From assembly GCF_009695745.1 (NCBI RefSeq), contig NZ_VUNH01000009.1:62001-126000 (forward strand): 64,000 bases of DNA, read 5' to 3'. The stretch's first letter is position 1. Each line of letters begins with the position of its first letter. Below are positions 5,981-52,530 of the stretch, piece after piece. The position numbers and the translations under genes were made by a program. The notes under the pieces were generated by a model. That model did not search any database. It was given only the letters and a program-made list of their open reading frames with translations, and had not been told where the DNA came from. Source of the stretch: Pyramidobacter porci (GTDB taxonomy: Bacteria > Synergistota > Synergistia > Synergistales > Dethiosulfovibrionaceae).

Positions 5981-6030
5981 GAGCCTGTCTCGAAACTCGC
6001 AAAAAAGCGAGAAACGAGACAGGCTCTTTT
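5981..6030 (+). terminator. Strong hairpin terminator with no obvious upstream gene
   Basis: A 12-bp stem (GAGCCTGTCTCG / CGAGACAGGCTC) encloses a second 5-bp stem (CTCGC/GCGAG) with an A6 loop, and CTTTTATTTG follows on the plus strand. The nearest plus-strand gene upstream ends about 1.2 kb away and already has its own hairpin. It may insulate the kinase gene or end an unannotated short transcript. Confidence 0.7.
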
Positions 6031-6131
6031 ATTTGTTTCGCGGTTCTCTTTGGGCTTTCTTTGCGTTGATTTTCTCGTGAGAAATTGTCATGTTGAAGAA
6101 AACTGTAAAACTGTTTCAGCGCCCATAAACG

Positions 6132-6140
6132 TGGTATGAT
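6132..6140 (+). promoter_or_regulatory. Probable extended -10 promoter for the PfkB kinase
   Basis: TGGTATGAT matches the extended -10 form TGnTATAAT. No good -35 is visible, as expected for this class. The same string occurs upstream of mrp (48202) and a close variant upstream of cdaA and the CdaR-type regulator. Confidence 0.5.
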
Positions 6141-6384
6141 TTAGCGTGGAGTGTTTCTTTCAAAGAGTTTTTTCTCCTTGTCTGTGATTGATGCCGGTTC
6201 TTTGAGAGGACGGATTGACGGCGAGCCGACGACATGCCGGGAGAATCCAGTCGCTCAAGCGTGCTCGATTGCTGCGTGGTCTGAAGAGCGCGCTTTGCGG
6301 CTGCGATTCACTCTTTTGGTCAAGGATCAGGATGAATTTCCTGTATAAGTTTTCGCGTGGCTTTCTAAAAATGGAGGAATGACG

Positions 6385-7320
6385 ATGATAGTGACTGTAA
6401 CGTTGAACCCTTCGGTGGATGAAGAGTACTTGCTTGACGAGATTGTTTTGGGCAGCTGGTCTCGGGCGAATTCTACCCTCAGGATGCCGGGAGGACGGGG
6501 CGTCAACGTTGCTCTGATGCTGACGCAACTGGGGTACAGTGCCGTGGCGATGGGGTTCTTGGCCGGCTTCAACGGTGAATACATTCGTGACGCGCTGCGC
6601 CGGGCAAATGTCACGACGAATTTTGTGCATATTCAGGGAGAGACGCGTACGAATGTTTATCTTTCCCTGAAAAATCCCGATGAGGGAACGAGTATTTATG
6701 AAAAAGGTCCCCGGGTTGACGATGAGGCGCGCAAAAGGTTTCTCATGAATTACAAGCGCATGATCAACAGGGCATCGGCGGTTGTTATCGGCGGTTCCCT
6801 CCCGGCAGGAATGCCGAAAGAAACCTACAAAGAACTTTCGCTGGTGGCTAAGGAAGCCGGCTTGCCGGTGTATATCGACGCCTATGGCTCTCCGTTCCTG
6901 ATGGCTCTGGAGACCCAGCCCCGCATGGCGAAAGTTCCGGATACGCAGATCGAGCATCTGGCCGGCAGGCCAGTTGACTCTCTTGAAGCTTACGTGGCGG
7001 CCGCGCACAAAGTCCATGAGATGGGGATTCCTTGGGGCGTGGTCTCGTATCAAGTTTACGGCGATGTCTTTGCCACCTCTCATGGAACTTATCTCGCGAA
7101 GATGACACGGGACAAAACTCAAGCCTTTTTGTTTACGGCGCGGGATGCGCTCGTCACCGGGATGGTGATCGCGGATGCCGAAGGGATGGGGACGGAAGAT
7201 TCGATTCGCTTTGCCATGGCTTGCGCGATTGAGAGCTCTACCCACGTGGACAGAAACATCAAAGGGCGGGCGTCAATAGAAGCGTATCTCGATAAAGTTA
7301 CGCTGGAAAAGCTGGATTAA
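6385..7320 (+). CDS. PfkB-family carbohydrate kinase (1-phosphofructokinase-like) with altered GAGD motif
   Basis: The 311-residue protein has a 1-phosphofructokinase-like order: an N-terminal TVTLNPSVDEEY substrate-loop region, GGRGVNVA (usually GGKGINVA), GGSLPAGMP in the middle and a C-terminal nucleotide region. The signature anion-hole/catalytic motif, normally GAGD, reads T251-A252-R253-D254. The catalytic aspartate is kept but both glycines are lost. It may be a divergent hexose or sugar-phosphate kinase, or may have reduced or changed activity. I chose ATG 6385 because GGAGGA at 6373-6378 is correctly spaced for it, while the in-frame ATG at 6379 abuts that site. No PTS or sugar operon genes are adjacent, so the substrate is unknown. 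Confidence 0.8.
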   Translation: MIVTVTLNPSVDEEYLLDEIVLGSWSRANSTLRMPGGRGVNVALMLTQLGYSAVAMGFLAGFNGEYIRDALRRANVTTNFVHIQGETRTNVYLSLKNPDEGTSIYEKGPRVDDEARKRFLMNYKRMINRASAVVIGGSLPAGMPKETYKELSLVAKEAGLPVYIDAYGSPFLMALETQPRMAKVPDTQIEHLAGRPVDSLEAYVAAAHKVHEMGIPWGVVSYQVYGDVFATSHGTYLAKMTRDKTQAFLFTARDALVTGMVIADAEGMGTEDSIRFAMACAIESSTHVDRNIKGRASIEAYLDKVTLEKLD

Positions 7321-7447
7321 GGCTCGGCGCCAAATAAAGACATTGGCGGCGCAGGTTTCCGAAGCGAGCAACTCCTCCCGGGTGTCGCTCTCGCGAAGAC
7401 CGGCATGGAGAACGCTGAGAACGCTGAAAGAAAAGAGGGATTGATCC

Positions 7448-8572
7448 GTGTTCAGCCATAGAGAAAAACAGCGTTTCTGCATATCCGTTTTTTTGATGTT
7501 CGGCCTGCTCGTTTGCGGCTGCACGGAGCCGGCCTCCGCGCGCAAGAAAAAGGAATCGGGGATTGAAGCTTCCGTGAAGCGGGAAGTTGCGATTGGCGCG
7601 AGGGTTGCCGAAGAAATTGCCAAAAACATGGAATTTGTTGAAGATCCTCTTGTGACTGCTCGCGTGCGAGGCATTTTTAATCGTTTGACGCCTTGGGTGA
7701 AACGGCCGCTTCCATACAACGTTCATGTTGTGAAAGAAAAATCGCCGAATGCGTTCTGTATCCCCGGCGGCAACATCTATGTCACAACGGGTCTGATAGA
7801 TTTTGTCAGGTCCGATGCAGAGCTCGCTTTTGTCATGGCTCATGAGTTGAGCCATGCCGACGGAAAACACGGGATCATCCAAATGGAACGGAACCAGAAG
7901 CTTTCGCTTGCGGCTCTGGCGATCGCCGTTGCTTCGCGGGGGGCCGGCGCTGCGATGGTCCTTTCCAACGTAGCGGCCGTTGCCGTTTCGAACGCTTACA
8001 GCCGGGATCTTGAACAGGAAGCTGACCTCGGCGCGGTGACCATCTCCGCAAATGCGGGATATGAACTGTCTGCCGGCGTCACGGTCATGGAAAGTCTTGC
8101 CGCGGAAGAGCTGAAGCAGCCTTGGGTCGATCCCGGCGTTTATCGTGACCATCCCAAAATATCGGAACGCATCCATTACATTGCCGGCGCTGTCGAAAGC
8201 AGAGGACATAAAATCCAACGCAAAAACGTCCTCAAACTGTTGATTCCTCGACTCGGCGAGGAGGGAAACAGACTTTTGCTGAGGGTTGACGATACGGTGA
8301 TTGTGCAAGCACCGGCCTCTTCCGAAGCCAGGCAGCTCTTTGAGGGAGCGCAGATGGCCCTGCAGCGGGCCCTGCAAATGGAAACTCCCGTGTATGATAT
8401 TCGCGTTGACGAGGCTGGCGGTCGTCCATCGGCGGTCTATATCGGAGTGAGCTGCATTTTGCGGGAGCCCTTGCCCAAAGGAACAGATTCTTTGGGGCAC
8501 GTTCGTTTACAGCTCGTAAAAGCTTTGACGGAAGCGAGAAAGAAGCATCCGATGGCGAATTACAGCCTGTAA
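7448..8572 (+). CDS. M48-family zinc metalloprotease, probable lipoprotein
   Basis: This 374-residue protein begins with a positively charged segment and a hydrophobic stretch ending in a lipobox-like LLVCGC, so it is probably exported and lipid-anchored. The zinc motif HELSH lies at residues 132-136 and the third ligand is the glutamate in RDLEQEADLGAV. This is the BepA/LoiP-like arrangement used in envelope protein quality control. A conserved GGNIYVTTGL precedes the active site as in the family. The C-terminal third has no motif I recognise. The start is GTG at 7448, preceded by AAGAGGGATTGATCC. The upstream kinase ends 127 nt away, so the two may form an operon, but a functional link is not evident. 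Confidence 0.87.
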   Translation: MFSHREKQRFCISVFLMFGLLVCGCTEPASARKKKESGIEASVKREVAIGARVAEEIAKNMEFVEDPLVTARVRGIFNRLTPWVKRPLPYNVHVVKEKSPNAFCIPGGNIYVTTGLIDFVRSDAELAFVMAHELSHADGKHGIIQMERNQKLSLAALAIAVASRGAGAAMVLSNVAAVAVSNAYSRDLEQEADLGAVTISANAGYELSAGVTVMESLAAEELKQPWVDPGVYRDHPKISERIHYIAGAVESRGHKIQRKNVLKLLIPRLGEEGNRLLLRVDDTVIVQAPASSEARQLFEGAQMALQRALQMETPVYDIRVDEAGGRPSAVYIGVSCILREPLPKGTDSLGHVRLQLVKALTEARKKHPMANYSL

Positions 8573-21778: not shown

Positions 21779-22177
21779 ATGAGAAAAAGCGTGTTCCTGA
21801 TGGCCGTCGCAGGCGTCTTCATGGGCTTCGGCTGGCGCGCCGACTACGCCGCGAAAATGCGGAAAATGGAAAACGTCGAAACGGTCGGGGCTGCATACGT
21901 GACGGAGCGTGCCGGACGAAAGGATTTTTTCGTCGTGGATCTGCGCGGCGCGCCCGCGGCGGAGCGAACGCCCGCCGCTTTCGAAGTCTTTCTGACGTCG
22001 GCGCAGCTCGAAAGCCCCGAGGCCGCCGCGCTGCTCAAACGCGCGGGCATCGATTCCGACGCCGAGATCGTACTGCGCGGCGGCACGGAGGAACAGACCG
22101 CCGCCGCGGCGAAACGGCTTCTGACGCTGCTGAACTGGAACTCGCTGGTCGTGAAAAGACTGGCGGCGGAGCCGTAA
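21779..22177 (+). CDS. Small exported protein of unknown function
   Basis: This is a 132-residue protein. Residues 1-22 are a signal peptide or membrane anchor (basic start, then VFLMAVAGVFMGFGW). The rest is soluble and alternates beta and alpha segments, with FFVVDLRG and a helix rich in Ala and Glu near the end. The VVDLRG strand recalls a rhodanese fold, but there is no catalytic cysteine at all in the protein. I do not recognise the family. It is 20 nt upstream of the GNAT gene and may share its transcript. The ATG follows GGAAAGGATGAGCGCACC. Confidence 0.6.
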   Translation: MRKSVFLMAVAGVFMGFGWRADYAAKMRKMENVETVGAAYVTERAGRKDFFVVDLRGAPAAERTPAAFEVFLTSAQLESPEAAALLKRAGIDSDAEIVLRGGTEEQTAAAAKRLLTLLNWNSLVVKRLAAEP

Positions 22178-22197
22178 AGAAGAAAAGGAGCGGCCGG

Positions 22198-23043
22198 ATG
22201 AGAATGACGCGCGGCGAAGCGGAGATCATGTCGTTCCGGGCGGGCGACGAGCGTGAGATCCCCGCTCTGGTGCGGTCGGTGTACGGAGGAAACTATGACC
22301 GGCGCTTTTACGAGCCGTCGGCAATCGCGCGCATGGTCGGCGAAGGTTTGTTCCTCGTCGCGGCGCGCCGGGGCGGACGCCTTGTAGGCATGACGGGATT
22401 CCGCGCCGAAGGGAGTTCCAACCGGCGGCTGTTCCGCACCTATCGCCGCATGGTCGCGCCCGAAGCGCGCGGGCTGGGGCTGGCGCGTGCCATGGAGGAC
22501 CTGGGCGAACGCTTTTTGATCGAAGAGGGATTGCCGGAAGGCTTTTACGCTCAGGTCGAGGCGTCCAGTCCTTCGAACCGTCTTCTGTCGGAGTGCGGAT
22601 TCGCGCTGACGGCGGCGGAACCGGCCGTGGGGAAACGCGCCGCCCAGACCTTTCTGTTCAAAGAATTGGAACCTGTCCGCGGCAAACTGAATGAAAACGG
22701 CTCGCTGGCCGCGGCGTATACGATGGCGGACGCCCCGCCGGTACAGAGGATCGACGCCGCCCGAGCCGGGCGCGGTCTGTTCGACGCGCTCGAACGGCTG
22801 TGCCGCGAAGGCAAAACGCTGGAGCTTTTTATGCCGCCGCCGAGCGAGGAAGATCGCGAGAGGCTGCGCGGCCTCGGATTTTTCAGCTGCGGCGTCGCGC
22901 GCCGCTGGAGGCCGGACGGCGACGGCGAAATCTTTATGAAAACATTCGCGCGCGCCGAGCTGCCCGCTCCGCCGCTGCAGGATGAACGAACTCTGGCGCT
23001 GTGGGAAGCCGTGCGCCGCGGCATGAAACGCGTCGGTTTATAA
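22198..23043 (+). CDS. GNAT-family N-acetyltransferase with C-terminal extension
   Basis: This is a 281-residue protein. Residues about 10-160 form a GNAT fold with the acetyl-CoA pyrophosphate-binding segment VAPEARGLGLARAMED, which fits the R/Q-x-x-G-x-G/A motif, and SSPSNRLLSECGF near its end. The last 120 residues are not clearly GNAT and may be a second, degenerate copy or a partner domain (a short hydrophobic strand FFSCGVARRW is visible). The acceptor substrate is unknown. ATG 22198 follows AAAAGGAGCGGCCGG. It converges on the phoR gene, separated by a shared hairpin terminator. Confidence 0.75.
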   Translation: MRMTRGEAEIMSFRAGDEREIPALVRSVYGGNYDRRFYEPSAIARMVGEGLFLVAARRGGRLVGMTGFRAEGSSNRRLFRTYRRMVAPEARGLGLARAMEDLGERFLIEEGLPEGFYAQVEASSPSNRLLSECGFALTAAEPAVGKRAAQTFLFKELEPVRGKLNENGSLAAAYTMADAPPVQRIDAARAGRGLFDALERLCREGKTLELFMPPPSEEDRERLRGLGFFSCGVARRWRPDGDGEIFMKTFARAELPAPPLQDERTLALWEAVRRGMKRVGL

Positions 23044-23090
23044 AAAGCGAATGGGGAAGCCGAACGCTCCGGCTTCCCCATTCGCTTTTT
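23042..23090. terminator. Bidirectional terminator between the GNAT gene and phoR
   Basis: A perfect 20-bp stem (AAAAAGCGAATGGGGAAGCC at 23042-23061, complement at 23071-23090) with a 9-nt loop. A/T tails on both sides allow it to serve both converging genes. Confidence 0.9.
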
Positions 23091-23091
23091 C

Positions 23092-24777
23092 CTAGGCGGG
23101 GGCGTGGAACTCTTTGTCGAAAATCACGGTGAAACAACTGCCCGAATCGGGCGCGCTGCTCAGCTCGACGGACGCGCCGTGAATCGCGGCGGCGTGTTTG
23201 ACGATGGCCAGTCCCAGGCCGGTGCCGCCGGTTTCCTTGCTGTGGCTCTTGTCCACGCGGTAGAAACGCTCGAAGACGCGGTCCTGGTGTTCCGGCGGGA
23301 TGCCGATGCCCGTGTCCTGCACGGTCAGCGCGACGGTCTCGTTCCCTTCGGCGACGTCGACGAGAACGGAGCCTCCCTCTCTGTTGTACTTGACGGCGTT
23401 TTCGATCAGGTTGAACGCCATCTCGTCGAGCAGGGGACGAACGCCCCAAACGCAGGCGCGGCGGCCGGTCAGTTCGATCAGCACTTTTCGGCTTTCAGCT
23501 TCGGGTTTGAGACGCGGCAAAATTTTTTCGCAGAGATCGAAGAGGTCGACGTTTTCACGAGGCGGCAGGGCCGCTTTCTCGTCGAGCTTCGACAGCTCCA
23601 TGATGTCGTTGACCAGCGCGATCAGGCGGCTGGCTTCGCCGTGGATTTTCTCGGCGAAGCCGCGCAGGTCTTCCGGTTTGGCGAGTCCCGAGGCCATGAT
23701 CTCGGAGTAACCGGCGATGGACGTAAGCGGCGTGCGCAGTTCGTGCGACACGTTGGCGGTGAATTCCCGGCGCTGTCGTTCCGCCTGCTGGCGGGCCGTG
23801 ACGTCGAGCAGCAGCACGACCATGCCCGCCTGTTTTTGTTCGCCGGCGACGGTCACGGGCGTGGAGAGAAGACGATAAACGCGGCCGCCGACGTCCAGCA
23901 GCGCTTCGCCGTTGCGCCCCGCCTGCGCGGCCTGGACAACGCTGTGCAGTTCGGCGCTGCGGCTGACGAGGAGGATATTCTGACCGACGTATTGAGCGGG
24001 GTCGACCGCGAAAATTCTCGCGGCGCTGCGATTGATGGCCAGCACCGTTCCTTCTTTGTCGACGTGGAGCAGCCCTTCGCGCATGTTTTCCGTAACGGCG
24101 GCCAGTTCGCGGCGTTGATTTTCCAGCTCGTCGAGCTGGCTGCGCAGCGTCTCGTTCTGATTTTCAAGGCGGAGCAGAAGCGGCGTCAGCTCGTCGTAAG
24201 CGTCGTTCTCCAGGGGCTCGGCGAGGTTGAGCCGGGTAATCGGAGCGGTGATGCCGCGGGCCAGAGCGCGCGAAAGAAACAGAGCCAGCAAAGCGGTCAG
24301 CGCCGCGGTAACGGTCAGCGGGAACACGACGCGGCGCGCCAGGCCGGCGGTCGTGCCGCGGGTGACGGCGACGCGCAGAATACGCCCGTCGTCCAAGCGG
24401 ACGGCGCAGTAATGCGTTTTTTCCGTGAGCGTGTCTGAATAGCGGTAGCTTTCGCCGCGGCCGCTGCGAAGCGCTTCCTGCACCTCGGGGCGGGCGCGGT
24501 GATTTTCCATTGCGCCGCTGGGCGCGTGATTGTCGTAAAGGACCTGTCCGTCGGCGGAGATGAGCGTGACGCGGCGGCTGTCGGGCAACGCGCTCAGATA
24601 TTCTTCGGCGTTGCGCAGAAGCGGCAGCGTCGCGGCCACGGATCGGGCTTCGGCGCGGAGCTCTTCGGCCACGCGCGCGTCGATGCTTTTGTAGGAGGCC
24701 CGGGCCGTAAACAGCCCAACGATGAAGACTGCGGCCAGTGCGGTGAGAAAAATACTCCAGAAAATTCGCCGCTGCAT
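23092..24777 (-). CDS. phoR: Phosphate-responsive sensor histidine kinase (PhoR-like)
   Basis: This 561-residue membrane kinase has a first helix at residues 7-24, an extracytoplasmic sensor part, a second helix at about 152-170, a coiled segment, a PAS domain at about 220-330, and a HisKA domain with phospho-accepting H345 in NVSHELRTPL. The ATPase domain has the N box NLIENAVKYN, DTGIGIP and GGTGLGLAI. It would phosphorylate PhoB when phosphate is scarce. It is the last gene of the pst-pho operon, 3 nt after phoB, which strongly supports the phosphate role over other histidine kinases. Confidence 0.92.
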   Translation of the reverse strand: MQRRIFWSIFLTALAAVFIVGLFTARASYKSIDARVAEELRAEARSVAATLPLLRNAEEYLSALPDSRRVTLISADGQVLYDNHAPSGAMENHRARPEVQEALRSGRGESYRYSDTLTEKTHYCAVRLDDGRILRVAVTRGTTAGLARRVVFPLTVTAALTALLALFLSRALARGITAPITRLNLAEPLENDAYDELTPLLLRLENQNETLRSQLDELENQRRELAAVTENMREGLLHVDKEGTVLAINRSAARIFAVDPAQYVGQNILLVSRSAELHSVVQAAQAGRNGEALLDVGGRVYRLLSTPVTVAGEQKQAGMVVLLLDVTARQQAERQRREFTANVSHELRTPLTSIAGYSEIMASGLAKPEDLRGFAEKIHGEASRLIALVNDIMELSKLDEKAALPPRENVDLFDLCEKILPRLKPEAESRKVLIELTGRRACVWGVRPLLDEMAFNLIENAVKYNREGGSVLVDVAEGNETVALTVQDTGIGIPPEHQDRVFERFYRVDKSHSKETGGTGLGLAIVKHAAAIHGASVELSSAPDSGSCFTVIFDKEFHAPA

Positions 24778-24780
24778 TCG

Positions 24781-25449
24781 TCAACCTCCCAATTTGTATC
24801 CTACGCCGCGCACCGTCTGGATCAGCGAAGCGCAGTCGCCGAGCTTGCCGCGCAGAGTCTGGACGTGGACGTCCACGGTGCGCGTGCCGCCCTCGTAACT
24901 GTAATCCCAGTTGCGTTCCAGAAGCTGTTCGCGCGTGAAGGCCACGCCGGGATGCCGCATCAGCAGTTCCAGCAGGGCGAATTCCTTCAGCGTCAGCGCG
25001 ACCGGGCGGCCGCCGGCCGTAACTTCGTGGCGCCGGCTGTCCAGTTTCAGCGCGCCGCAGCTGAGGACGGCCGCGCCCTTTTCTCCGCCCGCCGCGCGCA
25101 GGCGGGCTTTGACCCGCGCCACCAATTCCATCATGCCGAAAGGTTTGGCGATGTAATCGTCGGCGCCCAGGTCGAGTCCCCGCACCTTATCGTATTCGGA
25201 ACCTTTGGCGGTGACCATGATCGTCGGGACGCTTTTCAGCGAAGCGTCCTGACGGATGCGTTTGAGGATGCTCAGGCCGTCCTCGCGCGGCAGCATGATG
25301 TCGAGCAGGATCAGATCGGGCTTCCGTTCGGCGCAGGCGACGTAGAACGCCTGACCTTCCGCAAAGCCGCGGGCTTCGAGCCCCGTCTGGTTGAGCGTGT
25401 AGACCACCAGTTCGCGGATACCCGAATCGTCTTCGACGTAATAGATCAT
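24781..25449 (-). CDS. phoB: Phosphate-regulon response regulator (PhoB/PhoP-like)
   Basis: This is a 222-residue OmpR-family regulator. The receiver domain occupies residues 1-118, with acidic pocket E6-D7-D8 and phosphorylated Asp predicted at D50 (DLILLD). The C-terminal winged helix spans about 128-222 (LTLKEFALLELLMRHPG, then TRTVDVHVQTLRGKLGD and GVGYKL). It starts with an ATGA overlap on phoU and is followed by phoR after 3 nt. It probably binds the direct hexamer repeats found upstream of pstS. Confidence 0.93.
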   Translation of the reverse strand: MIYYVEDDSGIRELVVYTLNQTGLEARGFAEGQAFYVACAERKPDLILLDIMLPREDGLSILKRIRQDASLKSVPTIMVTAKGSEYDKVRGLDLGADDYIAKPFGMMELVARVKARLRAAGGEKGAAVLSCGALKLDSRRHEVTAGGRPVALTLKEFALLELLMRHPGVAFTREQLLERNWDYSYEGGTRTVDVHVQTLRGKLGDCASLIQTVRGVGYKLGG

Positions 25450-26102
25450 TCTTTCTCTCCGTTTTTATGGACGCCCGTGAGGGAGAACTCCACCCATTCG
25501 GCGATGTTTTGCGCGTGGTCGCCGATCCGCTCGAAATACTTGGCGATCATGAGCAGGTCGACGGCCTGCTCGCTGCAGGAGGCGTCTTTGTGGATCAGTT
25601 CCACCAGCTCGTTCTTGACGATGCGGAAAAGTTCGTCGACCAGATCGTCGAGCTCGAAGACGCTCTTCGCTTTTTCGAGGTCTTTCCGTACGAAAGCGTC
25701 GATGCTGCCGGTAACCATTTCGATGGCTCTGGCGGCCATCCGCGGCAAATGAATCAGCGGTTTGATGTAAGCCTGCCCGCGCAGGCGCAGGATGATTTCC
25801 GCGATATCCGCCGCCTGGTCGCCGATGCGTTCCAGATCGGTGATCATTTTCAGCGCCGCGGAGATCAGACGCAGATCCCCGGCGACGGGCTGCTGTTCGA
25901 GCAGCAGTTTGAGACAGAGCGACTCGACGGCGCGCTCCTGAGAATCGATCTCCCGTTCAAGCTCGATCGCCCGTCCGGCGGCGTCCTCGTCCTGTTCGGA
26001 CAGCGCTTGGGCGGCGCTTGCAATGGCTTGTTCCGCCAGGGCCCCCATTGCCAGCAGGTTGTTGTTGAGCTGGTTCAGCTGCTTGTCAAATCGGCTTCTC
26101 AT
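25446..26102 (-). CDS. phoU: Phosphate signalling protein PhoU
   Basis: This 218-residue all-helical protein shows two PhoU repeats, the first with ALSEQDEDAAGRAIELEREID and the second with LIAKYFERIGDHAQNIAEW. The metal-binding E-x-x-x-D patterns appear as LERIGDQAADIAE and FERIGDHAQNIAE. It links the Pst transporter to PhoR and keeps the regulon off when phosphate is sufficient. I chose ATG 26102, since the in-frame TTG at 26111 sits directly against the ribosome site. It lies 1 nt from the pstB stop. Confidence 0.93.
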   Translation of the reverse strand: MRSRFDKQLNQLNNNLLAMGALAEQAIASAAQALSEQDEDAAGRAIELEREIDSQERAVESLCLKLLLEQQPVAGDLRLISAALKMITDLERIGDQAADIAEIILRLRGQAYIKPLIHLPRMAARAIEMVTGSIDAFVRKDLEKAKSVFELDDLVDELFRIVKNELVELIHKDASCSEQAVDLLMIAKYFERIGDHAQNIAEWVEFSLTGVHKNGEKE

Positions 26103-26103
26103 T

Positions 26104-26853
26104 TTAACCAAACCTCCCCGTGATGTAATCTTCGGTGCGCTTGTCCCGAGGATTGGAAAAGAGGCGATCGGTCCCGTCGTACTCGACGATCTCTCCGAGC
26201 AGGAAAAACGCCGTTGTGTCCGAGATGCGCACCGCCTGCTGCATGTTGTGCGTCACCATGACGATCGTGTATTTTTCCTTCAGCGCCGTGACGAGATCTT
26301 CGATCCTGGCGGTGGAAAGCGGGTCGAGGGCGCTGGTGGACTCGTCCATCAGCAGCACCTCCGGCTCCACCGCCAGAGCCCGGGCGATGCAGAGGCGCTG
26401 CTGCTGTCCGCCGGAAAGACCAAGCGCGCTGGATCTGAGGCGGTCTTTCAGTTCGTCCCAGATGGCGGCGTCGCGGAGGGATTTCTCGACCACGGCTTCG
26501 AGGCGGGCGCGGCTGCGAACGCCGTGGGTGCGCGGACCGTAGGCGACGTTGTCGAAGACGCTCATCGGAAAAGGGTTGGGTTTTTGAAAGACCATGCCCA
26601 CGCGCTTGCGCAGCGTCGTCGTCTCCATTGTATCGTAAATATCCTCGCCGTCGAGAAGCACTTTGCCGGTGATTCTGCAGCCTTCGAGCAGATCGTTCAT
26701 ACGGTTCAAAGTCTTCATCAGCGTGCTCTTGCCGCAGCCGGAAGGACCGATGAACGCCGTGACTTGACGTTCGGGAATGGAAAGGGAAACGTTTTTCAGC
26801 GCGTGGAATTTATCGTAATACAGATTGAGATTTTCGACGTCAAACCGAGCCAT
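26104..26853 (-). CDS. pstB: Phosphate ABC transporter ATP-binding protein
   Basis: This 249-residue ABC ATPase has Walker [10 protein letters not shown], the signature [15 protein letters not shown] and Walker [13 protein letters not shown] (Ser where most PstB have Pro). It also has the PstB-typical [20 protein letters not shown]. It powers phosphate import through PstC and PstA. I used ATG 26853, behind AAGGAG on the minus strand. It overlaps the pstA stop by 14 nt. A longer reading from 26874 is possible but would move it further into pstA. Confidence 0.96.
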
Positions 26854-27670
26854 GGGCGAATCTCCTTGCCGCAAAAGAGGACAACGCGTTGATGCCGGCG
26901 GTGATGATCAGCAGCATAACGGCGGTAGCATAAGTCTGGTTCATGTACAAACCTTCGCTGGACAACGTGTACATATGCACGGCGAGCGTGCGCGACGAAT
27001 CGAAAACGCTGCGGGCGACCTCGGCGACCGTACCCGCCGTGTAAATCAGCGCCGCCGTCTCGCCGACGATGCGTCCGATGCCGAGAATAACGCCGGCGAG
27101 AATTCCGGGAACGGCCGACGGAAGCACGACGCAAAACACCGTGCGCAGACGTCCCGCGCCAAGGCCGAAGCTGGCCTCGCGATAACTGTCGGGCACGGCC
27201 CGCAGCGCTTCTTCCGCCGTGCGCATGACCAGCGGCAGAATCATCATCGCCAGCGTCATCGCTCCCGCCAGCAGCGAGATGCCCATGCGGCAGGCCGTGA
27301 CGAAAAAGAGCAGCCCGAACAGCCCGTAAATAATGGAAGGGAGCCCCGACAGCGTTTCCGCCGTGACGCGCACCGCTTTCACGAAAAAGCCCCCGCGCGC
27401 GGCGTACTCCGCCAGGTAGACAGCGGCTCCAAGACCGGCCGGAACGGCGGCGAGAAGAGCCAGCAGCGTCATTGACAGCGTGTTGATCAGCGCCGGCGTC
27501 AGCGAAACGTTGACGGAATCGTATTTCCATGCGAAAAGATCCGGCCTCAGATAGGGAACGCCGTGGCGCAGGATATCCGCAACGATGACCAGCAGCACGG
27601 CGACGGTAAAGAACGAGGCGGCGTAAACAAGGCCTTTCGTCAGCAGCGATTTCAAGCGGTTTATTGTCAC
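26840..27670 (-). CDS. pstA: Phosphate ABC transporter permease PstA
   Basis: This is a 276-residue inner-membrane permease with six predicted helices. The EAA-like loop region reads [30 protein letters not shown], followed by [27 protein letters not shown]. The start is GTG 27670, which overlaps the pstC stop in a GTGA junction and has AAGGAGGT upstream. A longer reading frame extends through the whole of pstC in another frame and is an artefact. It forms the channel together with PstC. Confidence 0.93.
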
Positions 27671-28518
27671 GCCTGCGACCTCCTTCGCAGCAGAGAAAAA
27701 GCGAGATTGACGATCAGAATGAACGCGAAAAGCACGACGCCCGTTGCGATCAGCGCCTCGCGGTGCAGGTCGGCGGCGTAGCCCATTTCCATGACGATGT
27801 TGCTCGTCAGCGTGCGTACGCCGCGGAACAAGCTCGTGGGGATCACGGCGCGGTTGCCGGCGACCATCATCACCGCCATAGCCTCGCCGACGGCGCGTCC
27901 GACGCCGAGGATCATCGCCGCGATCACGCCGGAACGGGCGGCGCGGAGCACGACGCTGAACACGGCGCGTTCGTGGGTGGCTCCGAGCGCCAGCGCTCCT
28001 TCGTAATAACTCCGGGGCGCGGCGTTCAGCGCCGCCTCGCTGACGGCGATAATCGTCGGCAGGATCATGATGCCCAGAAGCAGCGCCGCCGCCAGCAAAC
28101 TTGAACCGCTGCCGCCGAAATACCGGCGGATCAGCGGCACGATCGTCGTTACGCCCCAGAAACCGTACACGACCGACGGAATTCCCGCCAGCAGCGAGAC
28201 GGCCGGACGCAGGATACGCGTCATGCGCGGCGACGCGAAGCGCGACAGATAGACGGCCGTCAATAAACCGGCGGGAGCGCCGATAAGCAGCGCCCCCGCG
28301 GTGACGTACAGCGATCCGAGAATCATGGGCAGGATTCCGTAGATATCGTTTCCCGGCCGCCAGCGAGTTCCCGAGAGGAACTCCCATACGCCGATCTTCA
28401 TCATTCCGGGAATGCCGCCCGCGAAGAGGAAGACGCAGATCAGCGCTACGGCGATTACCGACGCCGCCGCGGCCGCGGCGAAAATCCACTTCGCGGCGTT
28501 CTCTTTGGCCTGAGTCAT
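27667..28518 (-). CDS. pstC: Phosphate ABC transporter permease PstC
   Basis: This 283-residue inner-membrane protein has six predicted helices. The cytoplasmic loop has VSEAALNAAPRSYYEGALALGATHERAV followed by GVIAAMILGVGRAVGEAMAVM, the PstC/PstA pattern. It also carries GIPSVVYGFWGV, matching the GxPSVVYG strand of the family. It lies 5 nt downstream of pstS and overlaps pstA, so phosphate import genes are tightly coupled. Confidence 0.94.
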   Translation of the reverse strand: MTQAKENAAKWIFAAAAAASVIAVALICVFLFAGGIPGMMKIGVWEFLSGTRWRPGNDIYGILPMILGSLYVTAGALLIGAPAGLLTAVYLSRFASPRMTRILRPAVSLLAGIPSVVYGFWGVTTIVPLIRRYFGGSGSSLLAAALLLGIMILPTIIAVSEAALNAAPRSYYEGALALGATHERAVFSVVLRAARSGVIAAMILGVGRAVGEAMAVMMVAGNRAVIPTSLFRGVRTLTSNIVMEMGYAADLHREALIATGVVLFAFILIVNLAFSLLRRRSQA

Positions 28519-28523
28519 CGTTT

Positions 28524-29384
28524 TTATTTCAAAGTTTCCCAGTTTTCGATTTTGCCCGTATAGATGTCGCGCACCTGTTCCACGGTCAGCCCCTTCAACT
28601 CGTTGCCCTTGTTGACGATCACGGCGATGCCGTCCATGGCGATCGCGACCGGAGTCAGGCCGGCTTTCAGCTCGCTTTCCTTGAGGCCGCGCGAAGCCAT
28701 GCCGAGGTCGCAGATGCCGGAGATGGCCGAGGTCATGCCGGTCGTGGAGTCGCTCGTCTGCACTTCGATCTCGGCGGCGGGGTTCACAAGCAGATAGGCT
28801 TCCTTGAGCTTTTCCATGATCGGCGCGATGCTGGACGAACCGGCGGCGACCACCTTGCCCGCGACGCGTTTGGCGGCGAAAGGAGCGGCTTTTTCATTGA
28901 CGGCGACATAGCCGTTGTCGACGATGACCTTCTGTCCCTGAGCGCTCATGACGAAGTTGAGGAAAGCTTGCGCGGCGGGGCGGAGCTGTCCTTTCGCGGC
29001 GACGTTGAACGGACGTGCGATCTTGTAATCTCCCTTGCGGATATTTTCGGCCGTAGCCGCCGCGCCGCTGATGGCCAGAGCTTTTACGTCCGCCTTTTTG
29101 AGCGAGCCCATCGACGCGTAGCCGATGGCGTTGGGATTGCCGGCCACCATCGTCATCATGACCGAGGTGCTGTTGGTGATGTCGGCGTTGTCGGTCGTCA
29201 TGTCGACCTTTTTGCCGTCAGTATCCTTCTGCTCCACGCCGAAAAGCTCGATAAACGCGCCGCGCGTGCCGGACCCCTCTTCGCGCGAGATCACGTCGAT
29301 CCCGCCTTTTGCCACGGCGAACGCCGGCGCCGCACAGCTTACGCTCATAGCCAGAACAACTGCCGCCAATTTCTTCATACTCAT
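28524..29384 (-). CDS. pstS: Phosphate-binding protein PstS, apparently circularly permuted
   Basis: This 286-residue exported protein has a signal peptide ending near AAPAFA. The order of the two halves is reversed relative to classical PstS. Directly after the signal comes the usual second half (ISREEGSGTRGAF, then AIGYASMG, YKIARPF, FVMSAQGQKVIVDNGYV, to about residue 165). The usual first half follows (GSSSIAPIMEKL, SDSTTGMTSAI, DLGMASRGLK, DGIAVIVNK, LTVEQVRDIYTGKIENW), and it stops where the second half normally begins. Both phosphate-contacting segments, GSSSIAP and SREEGSGTR, are intact, so binding should be possible. It heads the pstSCAB-phoU-phoB-phoR operon. The first ATG (29384) is best spaced from GAGGAG. 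Confidence 0.88.
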   Translation of the reverse strand: MSMKKLAAVVLAMSVSCAAPAFAVAKGGIDVISREEGSGTRGAFIELFGVEQKDTDGKKVDMTTDNADITNSTSVMMTMVAGNPNAIGYASMGSLKKADVKALAISGAAATAENIRKGDYKIARPFNVAAKGQLRPAAQAFLNFVMSAQGQKVIVDNGYVAVNEKAAPFAAKRVAGKVVAAGSSSIAPIMEKLKEAYLLVNPAAEIEVQTSDSTTGMTSAISGICDLGMASRGLKESELKAGLTPVAIAMDGIAVIVNKGNELKGLTVEQVRDIYTGKIENWETLK

Positions 29385-29446
29385 TTTTTATCTCCTCTTT
29401 CCTTTCGATTTTGTGCCTTGAGGATAATGCCGCTTTGTCAGGGGAA

Positions 29447-29474
29447 AATATCGGGCACGTAAAGAGAGTGTAAA
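29447..29474 (-). promoter_or_regulatory. Pho-box-like direct repeats and promoter upstream of pstS
   Basis: On the minus strand the order is TTTACA-N5-TTTACG-N5-GATATT. The hexamers recur every 11 bp, as in the TTAACA-type PhoP boxes of Bacillus, and the third is weak. TTTACA can also be the -35 of a promoter whose -10 is TATTTT 18 nt later. The site is about 65-90 nt before the pstS start codon. Confidence 0.5.
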
Positions 29475-29528
29475 ATCGTCTGCGTCTCTTTCTCGAAAGC
29501 GGATGAAGTGAGGAGACAGTGAAAGGAC

Positions 29529-29636: not shown

Positions 29637-30203
29637 TCACGCCGCGGCGAGCGACGTCATGCCGAGGGCGTAGAGGACGACGGTCAGCAGCGCCATGCCG
29701 AACAGCAAAATCTGCGGATACTTGCGCAGGAACGGCACGGCGAAGTAGAGTGCGGCGCTCAGTCCCGCAAAGGCCCAGAGCTCGCGGCGATGGAGCACGG
29801 GCAGCGCCACCGTCCACAGCGCCACGGCCAGCAGCCCCACCACGACGGGGCGCATGGCGACGCGGATGCGGTCGACCCAGAGGCGCGCCGTGCCGGAAGC
29901 GTTCTCGAAGATCCACACCAGCGCCATCACTACCAACAACGGCGCGACGACAACGGCCACTGTGCCGATGATGGAGCCGGCGAGCCCGGCGAAGCGGTAT
30001 CCCAGGAGCGTGGCCGAATTGAGAATGATGGGGCCGGGCGTCATCTGCGCGAGCGCGACGGTCTCGCTGAACACGCCGGCTGTCAGCCAGGCCTTTTCGG
30101 TGACGAAAACTTCATAGAGGAACGGCAACGACGCCAGGCCGCCGCCGAAGGTGAGCAGACTGACCTTGGCGAAGATGAAAAACAGGGCGATCAGATCCGT
30201 CAT
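29637..30203 (-). CDS. Chromate transporter family protein (single-domain ChrA), second of a pair
   Basis: This 188-residue membrane protein of the CHR family has the motif FAKVSLLTFGGGLASLPFLYE near the N-terminus and AQMTPGPIILNSATLLGYR, both hallmarks of the family. Single-domain CHR proteins normally occur as adjacent pairs that together equal one long ChrA. I set the start at ATG 30203, which overlaps the stop of the partner gene by 4 nt (ATGA). The family exports chromate in some bacteria, but the natural substrate in anaerobes is uncertain. Confidence 0.85.
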   Translation of the reverse strand: MTDLIALFFIFAKVSLLTFGGGLASLPFLYEVFVTEKAWLTAGVFSETVALAQMTPGPIILNSATLLGYRFAGLAGSIIGTVAVVVAPLLVVMALVWIFENASGTARLWVDRIRVAMRPVVVGLLAVALWTVALPVLHRRELWAFAGLSAALYFAVPFLRKYPQILLFGMALLTVVLYALGMTSLAAA

Positions 30204-30787
30204 GCCTTTTTCCCTTCCTTCTCGAGAAGCAGGTTGACGATCAGCGCCACGATCGTGCCGCCGATCAGTCCCCACACCGCGGAGACCTTGAAGATCAGCA
30301 CCGCCGCGGCGACCAGCAGGCAGATCGCGGTGTCCTTGACGCTGACGAGAGCGTTTTTCTTGCCCAGCTTCCAGACGATGGCGCCGAGCACGACCACCAG
30401 GCCGGCCGTGGCGCCGCTGAAGAACGCGGAAATGTAGCCCGACCCCATGTGCGCCAGCAGCCAGCTGGAAAGCACAAGAATAGCGATGAAGGGCGGCAGC
30501 GCCATGCCGAACACGGCCGCCGCCGCGCCGGCCGGGCCGCCGAGCGCCAGTCCCGCCTGATAGGACATGCTGATGCCCATCGCGCCGGGAGCTGCCAGCG
30601 AAAGCGCCAGCATGTCGGCCGTTTTTTCTTCGGGCACGACTCCCGTGCGGTTCACCGCTTCCTGGATCAGGCCGATCAGCACGGCGCCGCCGCCGAGCGT
30701 GAAGGCGCTGATCTTGAAGATCATCATGAAGATCGAAAAAAGCCCGAGCTTCTTTTCTTCTGCCTGTTCTTCTATCTGTGATTCCAC
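30200..30787 (-). CDS. Chromate transporter family protein (single-domain ChrA), first of a pair
   Basis: This 195-residue membrane protein has the CHR motif FKISAFTLGGGAVLIGLIQEAV and LSLAAPGAMGISMSYQAG, homologous to the corresponding parts of its neighbour. About six hydrophobic segments are visible. The start is uncertain. GTG 30787, eight to nine bases after AGAGG, gives a normal N-terminus. Upstream codons are AT-rich and do not resemble the family. The two genes overlap and should be translated together. Confidence 0.83.
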   Translation of the reverse strand: MESQIEEQAEEKKLGLFSIFMMIFKISAFTLGGGAVLIGLIQEAVNRTGVVPEEKTADMLALSLAAPGAMGISMSYQAGLALGGPAGAAAAVFGMALPPFIAILVLSSWLLAHMGSGYISAFFSGATAGLVVVLGAIVWKLGKKNALVSVKDTAICLLVAAAVLIFKVSAVWGLIGGTIVALIVNLLLEKEGKKA

Positions 30788-30968
30788 TGGAGGATGCCTC
30801 TTTTCTCGAAGTTGAAAACGCCGCTGAAAAAGACGGCGAATTCGTATGGTCAGAACGGTAGCAGAATTGTCGTGGCCTGTCAATGAAAATGTTTTTCGTG
30901 TTTCGCGATACAAAATTGGGGATCTGTACCGACGAAAGAGTCGGTTGGATTATGTAATTAAGATGGCA

Positions 30969-51322: not shown

Positions 51323-52530
51323 TCGTCGAGGATCAGCGGCACGGCCTTCTTCTCTCGCTCCCAGTCGGGGCGGGGCACAAGACTTTCCCACAGCGCCGCG
51401 CCGCGGAATTCTAGCGCCATGATCTTTTGGGCGTAGTCGTCGCCGTGCAGCCCCGCGGGTTTCGTGATCACCGGCAGCGAACTTTTTTTGCGCATCAGGC
51501 GCAGCAGTTCGCGGCCGCGGTTGTTCATCGCCAGCGGACGGATGTAGGCGGGGCCGTGGCGCTGAAAGAGCTGGTTGTCCGCCTCGCTGACGTTCAGCAG
51601 CAGGCTCATGAGCTGACGGCGGACGCGCGTGCGCGGATAGCGTCGCGTGGCCACCCGTTCGGCCAGTTCCTCGAAGCTCTCGCAGCGCGGAAACTGGTCG
51701 AGAAAGCGGTTCTCGACGCCTTCGCTCACCTCGGCGTATCGCGCCAGTTCCGCGCTTGTGGCGCGCATGAGCAGCAGCCGCAGCGCCTGCCAGAGCGGTT
51801 CCCAGTCGAGGCAGCAGCGTCCGGCGGCGATATTTTTTCGAAGGATGGCCGCGCTTTCGTCCGGCATGGCGCGGCACGCGCTCTCCATCCGCCCGTTCAG
51901 AAGCGCTTCGCGGATCCCCGTGGCGCTCATGATCTCGCCTTCGCTGCGGTCGTTGTACCCGGCGCCGGCGCGCCGCACCGGCAGCAGTTCGAAACCGGCC
52001 CTCTGGCGCAGCGCCGCTTCCGCGTAAGCGACGGCCAGCGTGTTGTTCGGCTTGCCCAACAGCGCGCCGCCGCCGGGACAAAACCGGTCGGCCGCCTCGG
52101 CCCTCGCTTGGGCGTAAGAGGATCCTTTTTTTAAGAAATTCTGTAAAATAGCCTTGAAAGCCGGAGGTTCCTGAACTAAAATAGCAGAGATTGCGCCGAG
52201 CAGATCCGTTTCGTCTTCCATGCCGAAGGAAATCGCTTCGACGACGCCCGCCGCTTTCAGCAGCGCCACGGCGCCGCCGGCGAAAACGCCGGCGTTGTTG
52301 CAGCAGAAAGGCAGCGGCAGCTCGAGCGCCAGATCGACGCCGCAGCGCACCGCGGCGTGGGCGCGTTCCCATTTGTCCAGCAGTGCGGGCACGCCCCGCT
52401 GCAGGAAGTTCGACGACAAAACGGAGACGATGGCCGCATCGCCGTTTCTTTTTTTTATTTCCTCGAGCTGATACCGATGGCCTCGATGAAAGGGGTTGTA
52501 TTCGGCGACGATGCCGATGATTTTTCTCAT
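51319..52530 (-). CDS. tmcAL: tRNA(Met) cytidine acetate ligase-like nucleotidyltransferase
   Basis: This 403-residue protein of the TmcAL (YlbM) family has AEYNPFHRGHRYQL with the HxGH motif of nucleotidyltransferases, FLQRGVPALLDKWERAHAAV and ISFGMEDE. In Bacillus the enzyme acetylates the wobble cytidine of elongator tRNA(Met) using acetate and ATP. It lies next to the acetate kinase gene on the opposite strand, as it does near ackA in many Firmicutes. ATG 52530 (MRKIIGIVAEY) follows GAGGAGAATCACCATC. A longer upstream reading lacks support. Confidence 0.88.
   Translation of the reverse strand: MRKIIGIVAEYNPFHRGHRYQLEEIKKRNGDAAIVSVLSSNFLQRGVPALLDKWERAHAAVRCGVDLALELPLPFCCNNAGVFAGGAVALLKAAGVVEAISFGMEDETDLLGAISAILVQEPPAFKAILQNFLKKGSSYAQARAEAADRFCPGGGALLGKPNNTLAVAYAEAALRQRAGFELLPVRRAGAGYNDRSEGEIMSATGIREALLNGRMESACRAMPDESAAILRKNIAAGRCCLDWEPLWQALRLLLMRATSAELARYAEVSEGVENRFLDQFPRCESFEELAERVATRRYPRTRVRRQLMSLLLNVSEADNQLFQRHGPAYIRPLAMNNRGRELLRLMRKKSSLPVITKPAGLHGDDYAQKIMALEFRGAALWESLVPRPDWEREKKAVPLILDD

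Follow-up and report, generated by a model that had tools for sequence, protein, structure and literature searches.

The 286-residue open reading frame at the head of the pst-pho operon of Pyramidobacter porci is a circularly permuted PstS, a phosphate-binding protein whose two usual halves stand in swapped order. It belongs to a widespread class of permuted PstS, here called the 4H1X type, of which a single structure has been solved. To locate it, we refer to the whole stretch of DNA that was analysed (64,000 nucleotides) as the window; all features are collected in Table 1.

The permutation was detected by profile and PDB sequence searches. Pfam PF12849 (PBP_like_2; 6.5e-31, above the gathering score) and NCBIfam TIGR02136 (1.1e-53) each matched the 286-residue protein in two stretches, whose order was swapped relative to the model. 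For both, the best stretch linked the C-terminal part of the protein to the N-terminal part of the model (protein 171–283 to model 5–124 for PF12849, protein 170–284 to model 33–154 for TIGR02136). The PDB search showed that both halves are homologous to PstS, since each matched canonical entries: in 4q8r and 4gd5, query residues 175/177–285 aligned to the first half of the chain and residues 29–158/160 to the second half. The best PDB match, 4h1x, was aligned as a single block (query 25–286 to chain 7–265, E 6.6e-61). In a reverse test, block A was placed ahead of block B in silico and the PDB sequences were searched again. The re-ordered protein matched 10 of the 11 listed PDB sequences, all canonical, in a single stretch, and 4h1x alone was split in two. 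Because canonical chains match as two swapped blocks and 4h1x as one, with the reverse after re-ordering, we conclude that the protein is circularly permuted.

There is a single breakpoint, in the loop that separates ...TGK-x-x-NW from I-x-VISRE(E/D)GSGTR, and the resulting order is B-A. The protein ends in ...YTGKIENWETLK, where a canonical PstS would continue with VISREEGSGTR. A preliminary description of this DNA had claimed swapped halves, a clean break and the presence of each segment once. The alignments and the re-ordering confirmed all three points, each half being single-copy. That description also named a normal co-linear alignment as evidence against permutation; it was looked for by the comparison with canonical PstS, and the alignment was swapped instead. 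Chance resemblance was ruled out by the E-values and by the same order in the best 80 of at least 549 relatives. The TIGR02136 score of the protein was 182.3 as encoded and 193.9 after re-ordering, both below the cut-off of 206.6 bits, which is the naming threshold of the model and not a biological property. Poor annotation due to the permutation alone was ruled out, since the re-ordered protein still scored below this cut-off.

Table 1. Features of the window and fused double PstS proteins of other genomes (window positions unless a locus is named)
Feature	Position	Strand	Evidence or remark
permuted pstS	28524..29384	(-)	286 aa, coordinates with stop; profile, PDB-sequence and structure matches
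signal peptide, residues 1–23	29316..29384	(-)	pLDDT < 50; cleavage site by eye
block B, usual C-terminal half, residues 26–165	28890..29309	(-)	VISREEGSGTR...AIGYASMG...GQKVIVDNGYV
short linker, residues ~166–173	28866..28889	(-)	old C-terminus joined to old N-terminus
block A, usual N-terminal half, residues 174–286	28527..28865	(-)	GSSSIAP...DLGMASR...LTVEQVRDIYTGKIENW; protein end
pstC	27667..28518	(-)	TIGR02138 280.6 bits, cut-off 196.45; PstC trees
pstA	26840..27670	(-)	TIGR00974 255.1 bits, cut-off 193.45 (residues from 26843-27622)
pstB	26104..26874	(-)	TIGR00972 407.2 bits, cut-off 343.2
phoU	25446..26111	(-)	TIGR02135 208.5 bits, cut-off 130.25
PhoB-like response regulator	24781..25449	(-)	best model TIGR02154 PhoB 220.3 bits, below cut-off 296.2
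PhoR/PnpS-like sensor histidine kinase	23092..24777	(-)	best model NF046044 PnpS 313.6 bits, below cut-off 400
segment absent from congeneric G069	22164..29521	.	7.36 kb: entire pst-pho operon and gene 22198-23043
A-B-A-B PstS	L153:2291-4099 (same ORF in L159); L165:962-3079; L166:935-2965		fused units ahead of pstC
A-B-A-B PstS	L167:4049-6169; L168:4045-6159; L169:3789-5786; L170:3812-5935; L171:4065-6083	(-)	

The same arrangement is widely distributed. A scan of 84,980 species genomes gave at least 549 relatives, and the best 80, whose block order was taken from their phmmer or HMM matches, all proved to be B-A (80/80). These best 80 were mostly Clostridia, together with Negativicutes, Chloroflexota (Flexilinea, Leptolinea), Desulfovibrionaceae and Coriobacteriales. 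In the phylum samples, whose counts include the centre genome of each sample, a full-length co-linear match to the window protein was found in 6 of 120 Synergistota genomes, namely G000, G046 and G053 of one genus and G075, G042 and G040. Two congeneric genomes carry the same permuted order at 90% identity, and no permuted PstS was found in seven listed genomes from other genera of the same family. The Bacillota sample contained permuted PstS in 7 of 149 genomes (centre genome and the divergent G289 included). Among 101 Chloroflexota and 99 Desulfovibrio-phylum genomes, searched with a limit of 1e-20, it was found in the centre genome only. The impression given in the preliminary description that other gut anaerobes share the arrangement proved right, with a range well beyond them.

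Permuted PstS was also found on plasmid records of Monoglobus pectinilyticus and Treponema saccharophilum, and in both records NCBI names the relatives only as 'substrate-binding domain-containing protein'. At L174:5992-6861 and L175:4465-5280, where the permuted gene is followed by pstC-pstA-pstB-phoU, the label is the same and the class is therefore under-annotated there. Two permuted copies were seen in L067 (adjacent genes at ~5989-6885 and 7140-7988) and in genomes G127, G133 and G174. Among 25 genomes reached via named loci, the permuted form was the sole PstS match (E 1e-3 or better) in 19, one of which is the complete chromosome of Anaerotignum sp. MB30-C6. Three of the other six had canonical-order pieces, two had a single weak piece, and one had a fragment, which is probably a piece of the same gene.

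The PstS tree was built from 65 representatives (27 permuted, 37 canonical and 1 double) and 243 columns, with no outgroup root; each half was aligned on its own before the two were put together in canonical order. Twenty-six permuted rows, among them 4h1x and the PstS of the window, grouped as a single clade (96/95; the bootstrap had not settled completely). In the PstC tree (50 rows), the PstC proteins linked to permuted PstS, including that of the divergent locus L120, lay on one side of a branch supported at 91/81; without L120, the 18 such rows were supported at 99/98. No exchange between permuted PstS and canonical-linked PstC was seen in the two trees. These results fit a single origin of permuted PstS with its own PstC lineage, and the permuted form was probably derived within the canonical diversity of Bacillota, as placed in unrooted trees.

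Alternatively, separate permutations could have occurred at one and the same loop, one of them perhaps in the L120/G289 lineage, if this loop tolerates termini. The permuted PstS at L120:626-1564 (G289) is divergent (34–36% identity) and has the same break, yet it fell outside the permuted clade in the free trees, and the free tree was 6.99 log-likelihood units better than the one uniting all 27 permuted rows. However, L120 is a flagged long branch, the one-clade tree was not rejected (p-AU 0.388), and the partner PstC of L120 joins the other permuted-linked PstC. Repeated origin is therefore considered unlikely.

Under a single origin, the link between permuted PstS and a single PstC lineage may reflect co-adaptation or simple operon co-inheritance. 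PstC columns that differ between the classes were found by comparing 49 permuted-linked with 16 near canonical-linked sequences, and given one clade they may mark ancestry only. We propose tentatively, and with more doubt than confidence, that permuted PstS defines a separate Pst importer class of single origin, in which lobe topology and PstC co-evolved, docking or tethering was altered, and the permuted form took the place of canonical PstS as the sole PstS of many anaerobes.

Models of permutation by duplication predict fused double intermediates of the A-B-A-B type. Such fused PstS proteins were found in 8 of 301 Chloroflexota genomes, as a single ORF of 603–708 residues ahead of pstC. The two units are 96–100% identical within a protein and 31–68% identical between more distant proteins; five closely related proteins are 92–99% alike throughout. 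Because the units are near-identical within but divergent between proteins, the sequences suggest that duplication recurred or that gene conversion took place (some cases may be assembly errors). These fused proteins are not closely related to the permuted clade, so what they demonstrate is that a first duplication step is accessible in the PstS family, not that permutation took this route. In the best-supported history, a Bacillota pstS would have been duplicated once, in tandem and in frame, to give an A-B-A-B protein, and loss of its outer halves would have left B-A.

The operon of the window is missing from one close relative. In the congeneric genome G069, the site is cleanly empty: the flanks of the missing segment lie about 47 bp apart (G069:C71 near 52160-52208, L176), and they match the window at 92–93% over several kilobases, falling to 87% in the final 566 bp of one flank. 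Inside the missing cassette, the gene at 22198-23043 (+) appeared by eye to be GNAT acetyltransferase-like. In the trees, the permuted PstS and the PstC of the window grouped with sequences of Bacillota, Desulfovibrionaceae and Coriobacteriales; most canonical copies from Synergistota grouped together, with L024 apart. Gain of the cassette by transfer is a simpler reading than loss in G069, because the cassette is absent both from the G069 site and from the listed sister genera. The pst-pho cassette would then have spread between phyla, including into a Pyramidobacter-like lineage.

The preliminary description had also stated that the gene heads a complete pst-pho operon, and the NCBIfam matches to the operon genes confirm this. 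The order on one strand is pstS-pstC-pstA-pstB-phoU-regulator-kinase, and pstC, pstA, pstB and phoU each score higher than the curated cut-off of their model. Translation of pstA probably starts at the GTG at 27668-27670, which overlaps the stop codon of pstC. Among the best 80 of at least 549 relatives, pstS-C-A-B was contiguous in 74 and the full seven-gene order was present in 50, the shortfall in both counts being partly due to contig ends. The genome also has a second PstS, a canonical one in a second operon on contig C4 (TIGR02136 214.4, above the cut-off). Both PstS topologies thus occur in one genome, as they do in S. pneumoniae (PstS1 4exl, PstS2 4h1x). Also in the window, the ORFs at 29637-30275 and 30200-30913 (-) are adjacent and overlapping, and by eye they look like two halves of a chromate-type transporter.

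We infer from the conserved binding segments that phosphate is the ligand of the permuted PstS. It might alternatively bind another oxyanion, or serve sensing through PhoU/PhoR instead of uptake. The unreached cut-off of the curated PstS model (TIGR02136) and the unspecific NCBI name of the plasmid relatives would agree with this. On the other side, the pstC, pstA, pstB and phoU of the operon exceed their cut-offs, 19 of 25 genomes have no PstS match other than the permuted form, and the named relative PstS2 is part of a working Pst2 importer in S. pneumoniae (PMC4913102, part of the text). Another ligand or role is thus improbable. As a whole, the results are very probably best explained by a genuine and probably functional permuted PstS of a PstSCAB importer, with a history of duplication and then spread.

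The predicted structure was consistent with the permuted order. The AlphaFold2 model, for which 39 permuted sequences were aligned, had a mean pLDDT of 90.1 and a pTM of 0.81, and its sole stretch below 50 was residues 1–23. Foldseek placed 4h1x at the top, far ahead of other matches (TM 0.91 on target, E 1.5e-34). In VIA-align, the model and 4h1x were superposed over 257/257 residues (model 27–286 to chain 35–291, Z 34.8, rmsd 2.2, 42% structural identity). The canonical chains listed covered about half of the model (1twy 140 residues, 4exl 136, 9l8j 115), with 1twy spanning model 21–162 to chain 136–276 and 9l8j spanning model 172–286 to chain 2–117. The structure prediction suggested in the preliminary description thus matches permuted 4H1X end to end and canonical PstS over only about half. 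The title of PDB entry 9L8J mentions an 'evolutionary hotspot'. The Foldseek and VIA matches that ranked lower than 4h1x (HisG, LysR domains, OpuAC) were attributed to a general resemblance in fold.

Residues R34, E35, G37, S38, G39 and T40 of the N-terminal block and S183, S185, S213, G216, S231, D251 and G252 of the C-terminal block were invariant in 39/39 sequences, which shows constraint on each half. In E. coli PstS, too, the corresponding segments of the two halves provide the phosphate contacts. An N-terminal block that is a degenerate extra domain, with the C-terminal block binding phosphate alone, was the other contrary case named in the preliminary description. The invariant R34-E35-x-G37-S38-G39-T40 segment and the folding of the model as one protein, with 257/257 residues on 4h1x, led us to reject it as extremely improbable. 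An assembly chimaera, or a mis-joining of tandem pstS genes, was likewise rejected with a negligible likelihood, since the same order occurs in two congeneric genomes (90% identity), in 80/80 loci from other genomes (the best 80 of at least 549 relatives) and in crystal structure 4h1x. No evidence in favour of either of these two readings came to light.

The long strands 123–131 and 243–257 of the model sit at the usual inter-lobe crossings of two-lobed binding proteins of this kind. Because of this position, the lobe to which the termini of canonical PstS belong would be continuous here, with the old termini fused inside it, and the other lobe, made of most of block B and the end of block A, would carry both termini. 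The two lobes would close on phosphate as in ordinary PstS, with contact loops from both halves, and the permuted protein would hand phosphate to PstC/PstA. The preliminary description had expected the termini in the other lobe, which fits the secondary structure of the model and the known fold of binding proteins. It had also suggested an effect on docking to PstCA; this may exist, and what the trees show is that permuted PstS and one PstC lineage are inherited together. Overall, the description was right in what it observed and in almost all of its interpretation.

Membrane anchoring was considered as a possible companion of the permutation. The signal peptide of the window protein has APAFA followed by VAKGG, with no standard lipobox (pattern search; site by eye), and it is probably of the signal peptidase I type. 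The lipobox pattern matched 58 of 87 permuted ORFs and not the remaining 29, counts that include near-duplicates such as L004, L005 and L033; three of the 29 (L059, L062 and L065) were judged lipoproteins by eye. Permuted PstS without a recognisable lipobox occurred in Synergistota, Desulfovibrionaceae and some Clostridia, and among those of Synergistota and Desulfovibrionaceae L008 alone matched the pattern. An apparent AxA site without a lipobox was seen in L057, L063, L073, L086, L094 and L107 (Blautia-type) and in other Clostridia, which is unusual for a monoderm binding protein. Lipid tethering is therefore no general companion of the permutation, because permuted PstS without a lipobox occurs in several groups. 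A tie between permutation and lipid anchoring, an idea taken from PMC4990184 (part of the text), is unsupported as a rule with 29 of 87 ORFs lacking a match.

A natural permutation in a well-studied transport protein offers a direct test of how the position of the termini affects lobe closure, tethering and docking. The Pst system exists in both topologies, sometimes within one cell, and together with the A-B-A-B proteins of Chloroflexota the PstS family shows the start and end states expected for permutation by duplication. There is also an annotation issue, as the naming in the two plasmid records illustrates. A search of the open-access literature found no description of permuted PstS, and the class is apparently undescribed; its topology has been in the PDB since 2012, so the fold is not structurally new.

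Canonical PstS (4Q8R, 4GD5, 1TWY, 4EXL; TIGR02136) shares with the permuted form the binding segments, the fold half by half and the operon partners, but its halves are reversed and its termini would lie in a different lobe. OpuAC of Bacillus subtilis (3CHG, 2B4L), regarded as permuted relative to ProX, is co-linear with the permuted model over 207–217 residues (Z ~10), but it is a betaine binder with about 10% identity. Tp0684/MglB-2 of Treponema pallidum is a naturally permuted glucose-binding protein of an ABC transporter, with a crystal structure and demonstrated ligand binding; its authors propose 'Type Ic / Cluster Bc' and name tethering as a possible reason for the permutation. Unlike permuted PstS, it is a Type I sugar-binding protein with another break (all from part of the text of PMC4990184). 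It was not among the structure matches listed for our model; the sequence and structure comparisons of the window protein point to PstS.

The closest known system is PstS2 of S. pneumoniae TIGR4 (SP_2084, PDB 4H1X, released 2012), which has the same permuted order and is co-linear over the mature protein. We equate it by name with the PstS2 of the Pst1/Pst2 paper, whose text, in the part covered here, contains no word starting with 'permut' (PMC4913102). According to the same part, encapsulated strains of S. pneumoniae D39 need either pst1 or pst2, and the Pst2 importer is still active in low phosphate. As in P. porci, the species also has a second, canonical PstS (PstS1, 4EXL). 4H1X differs from the window protein in its position in the drawn tree, where it is sister to all remaining core permuted sequences.
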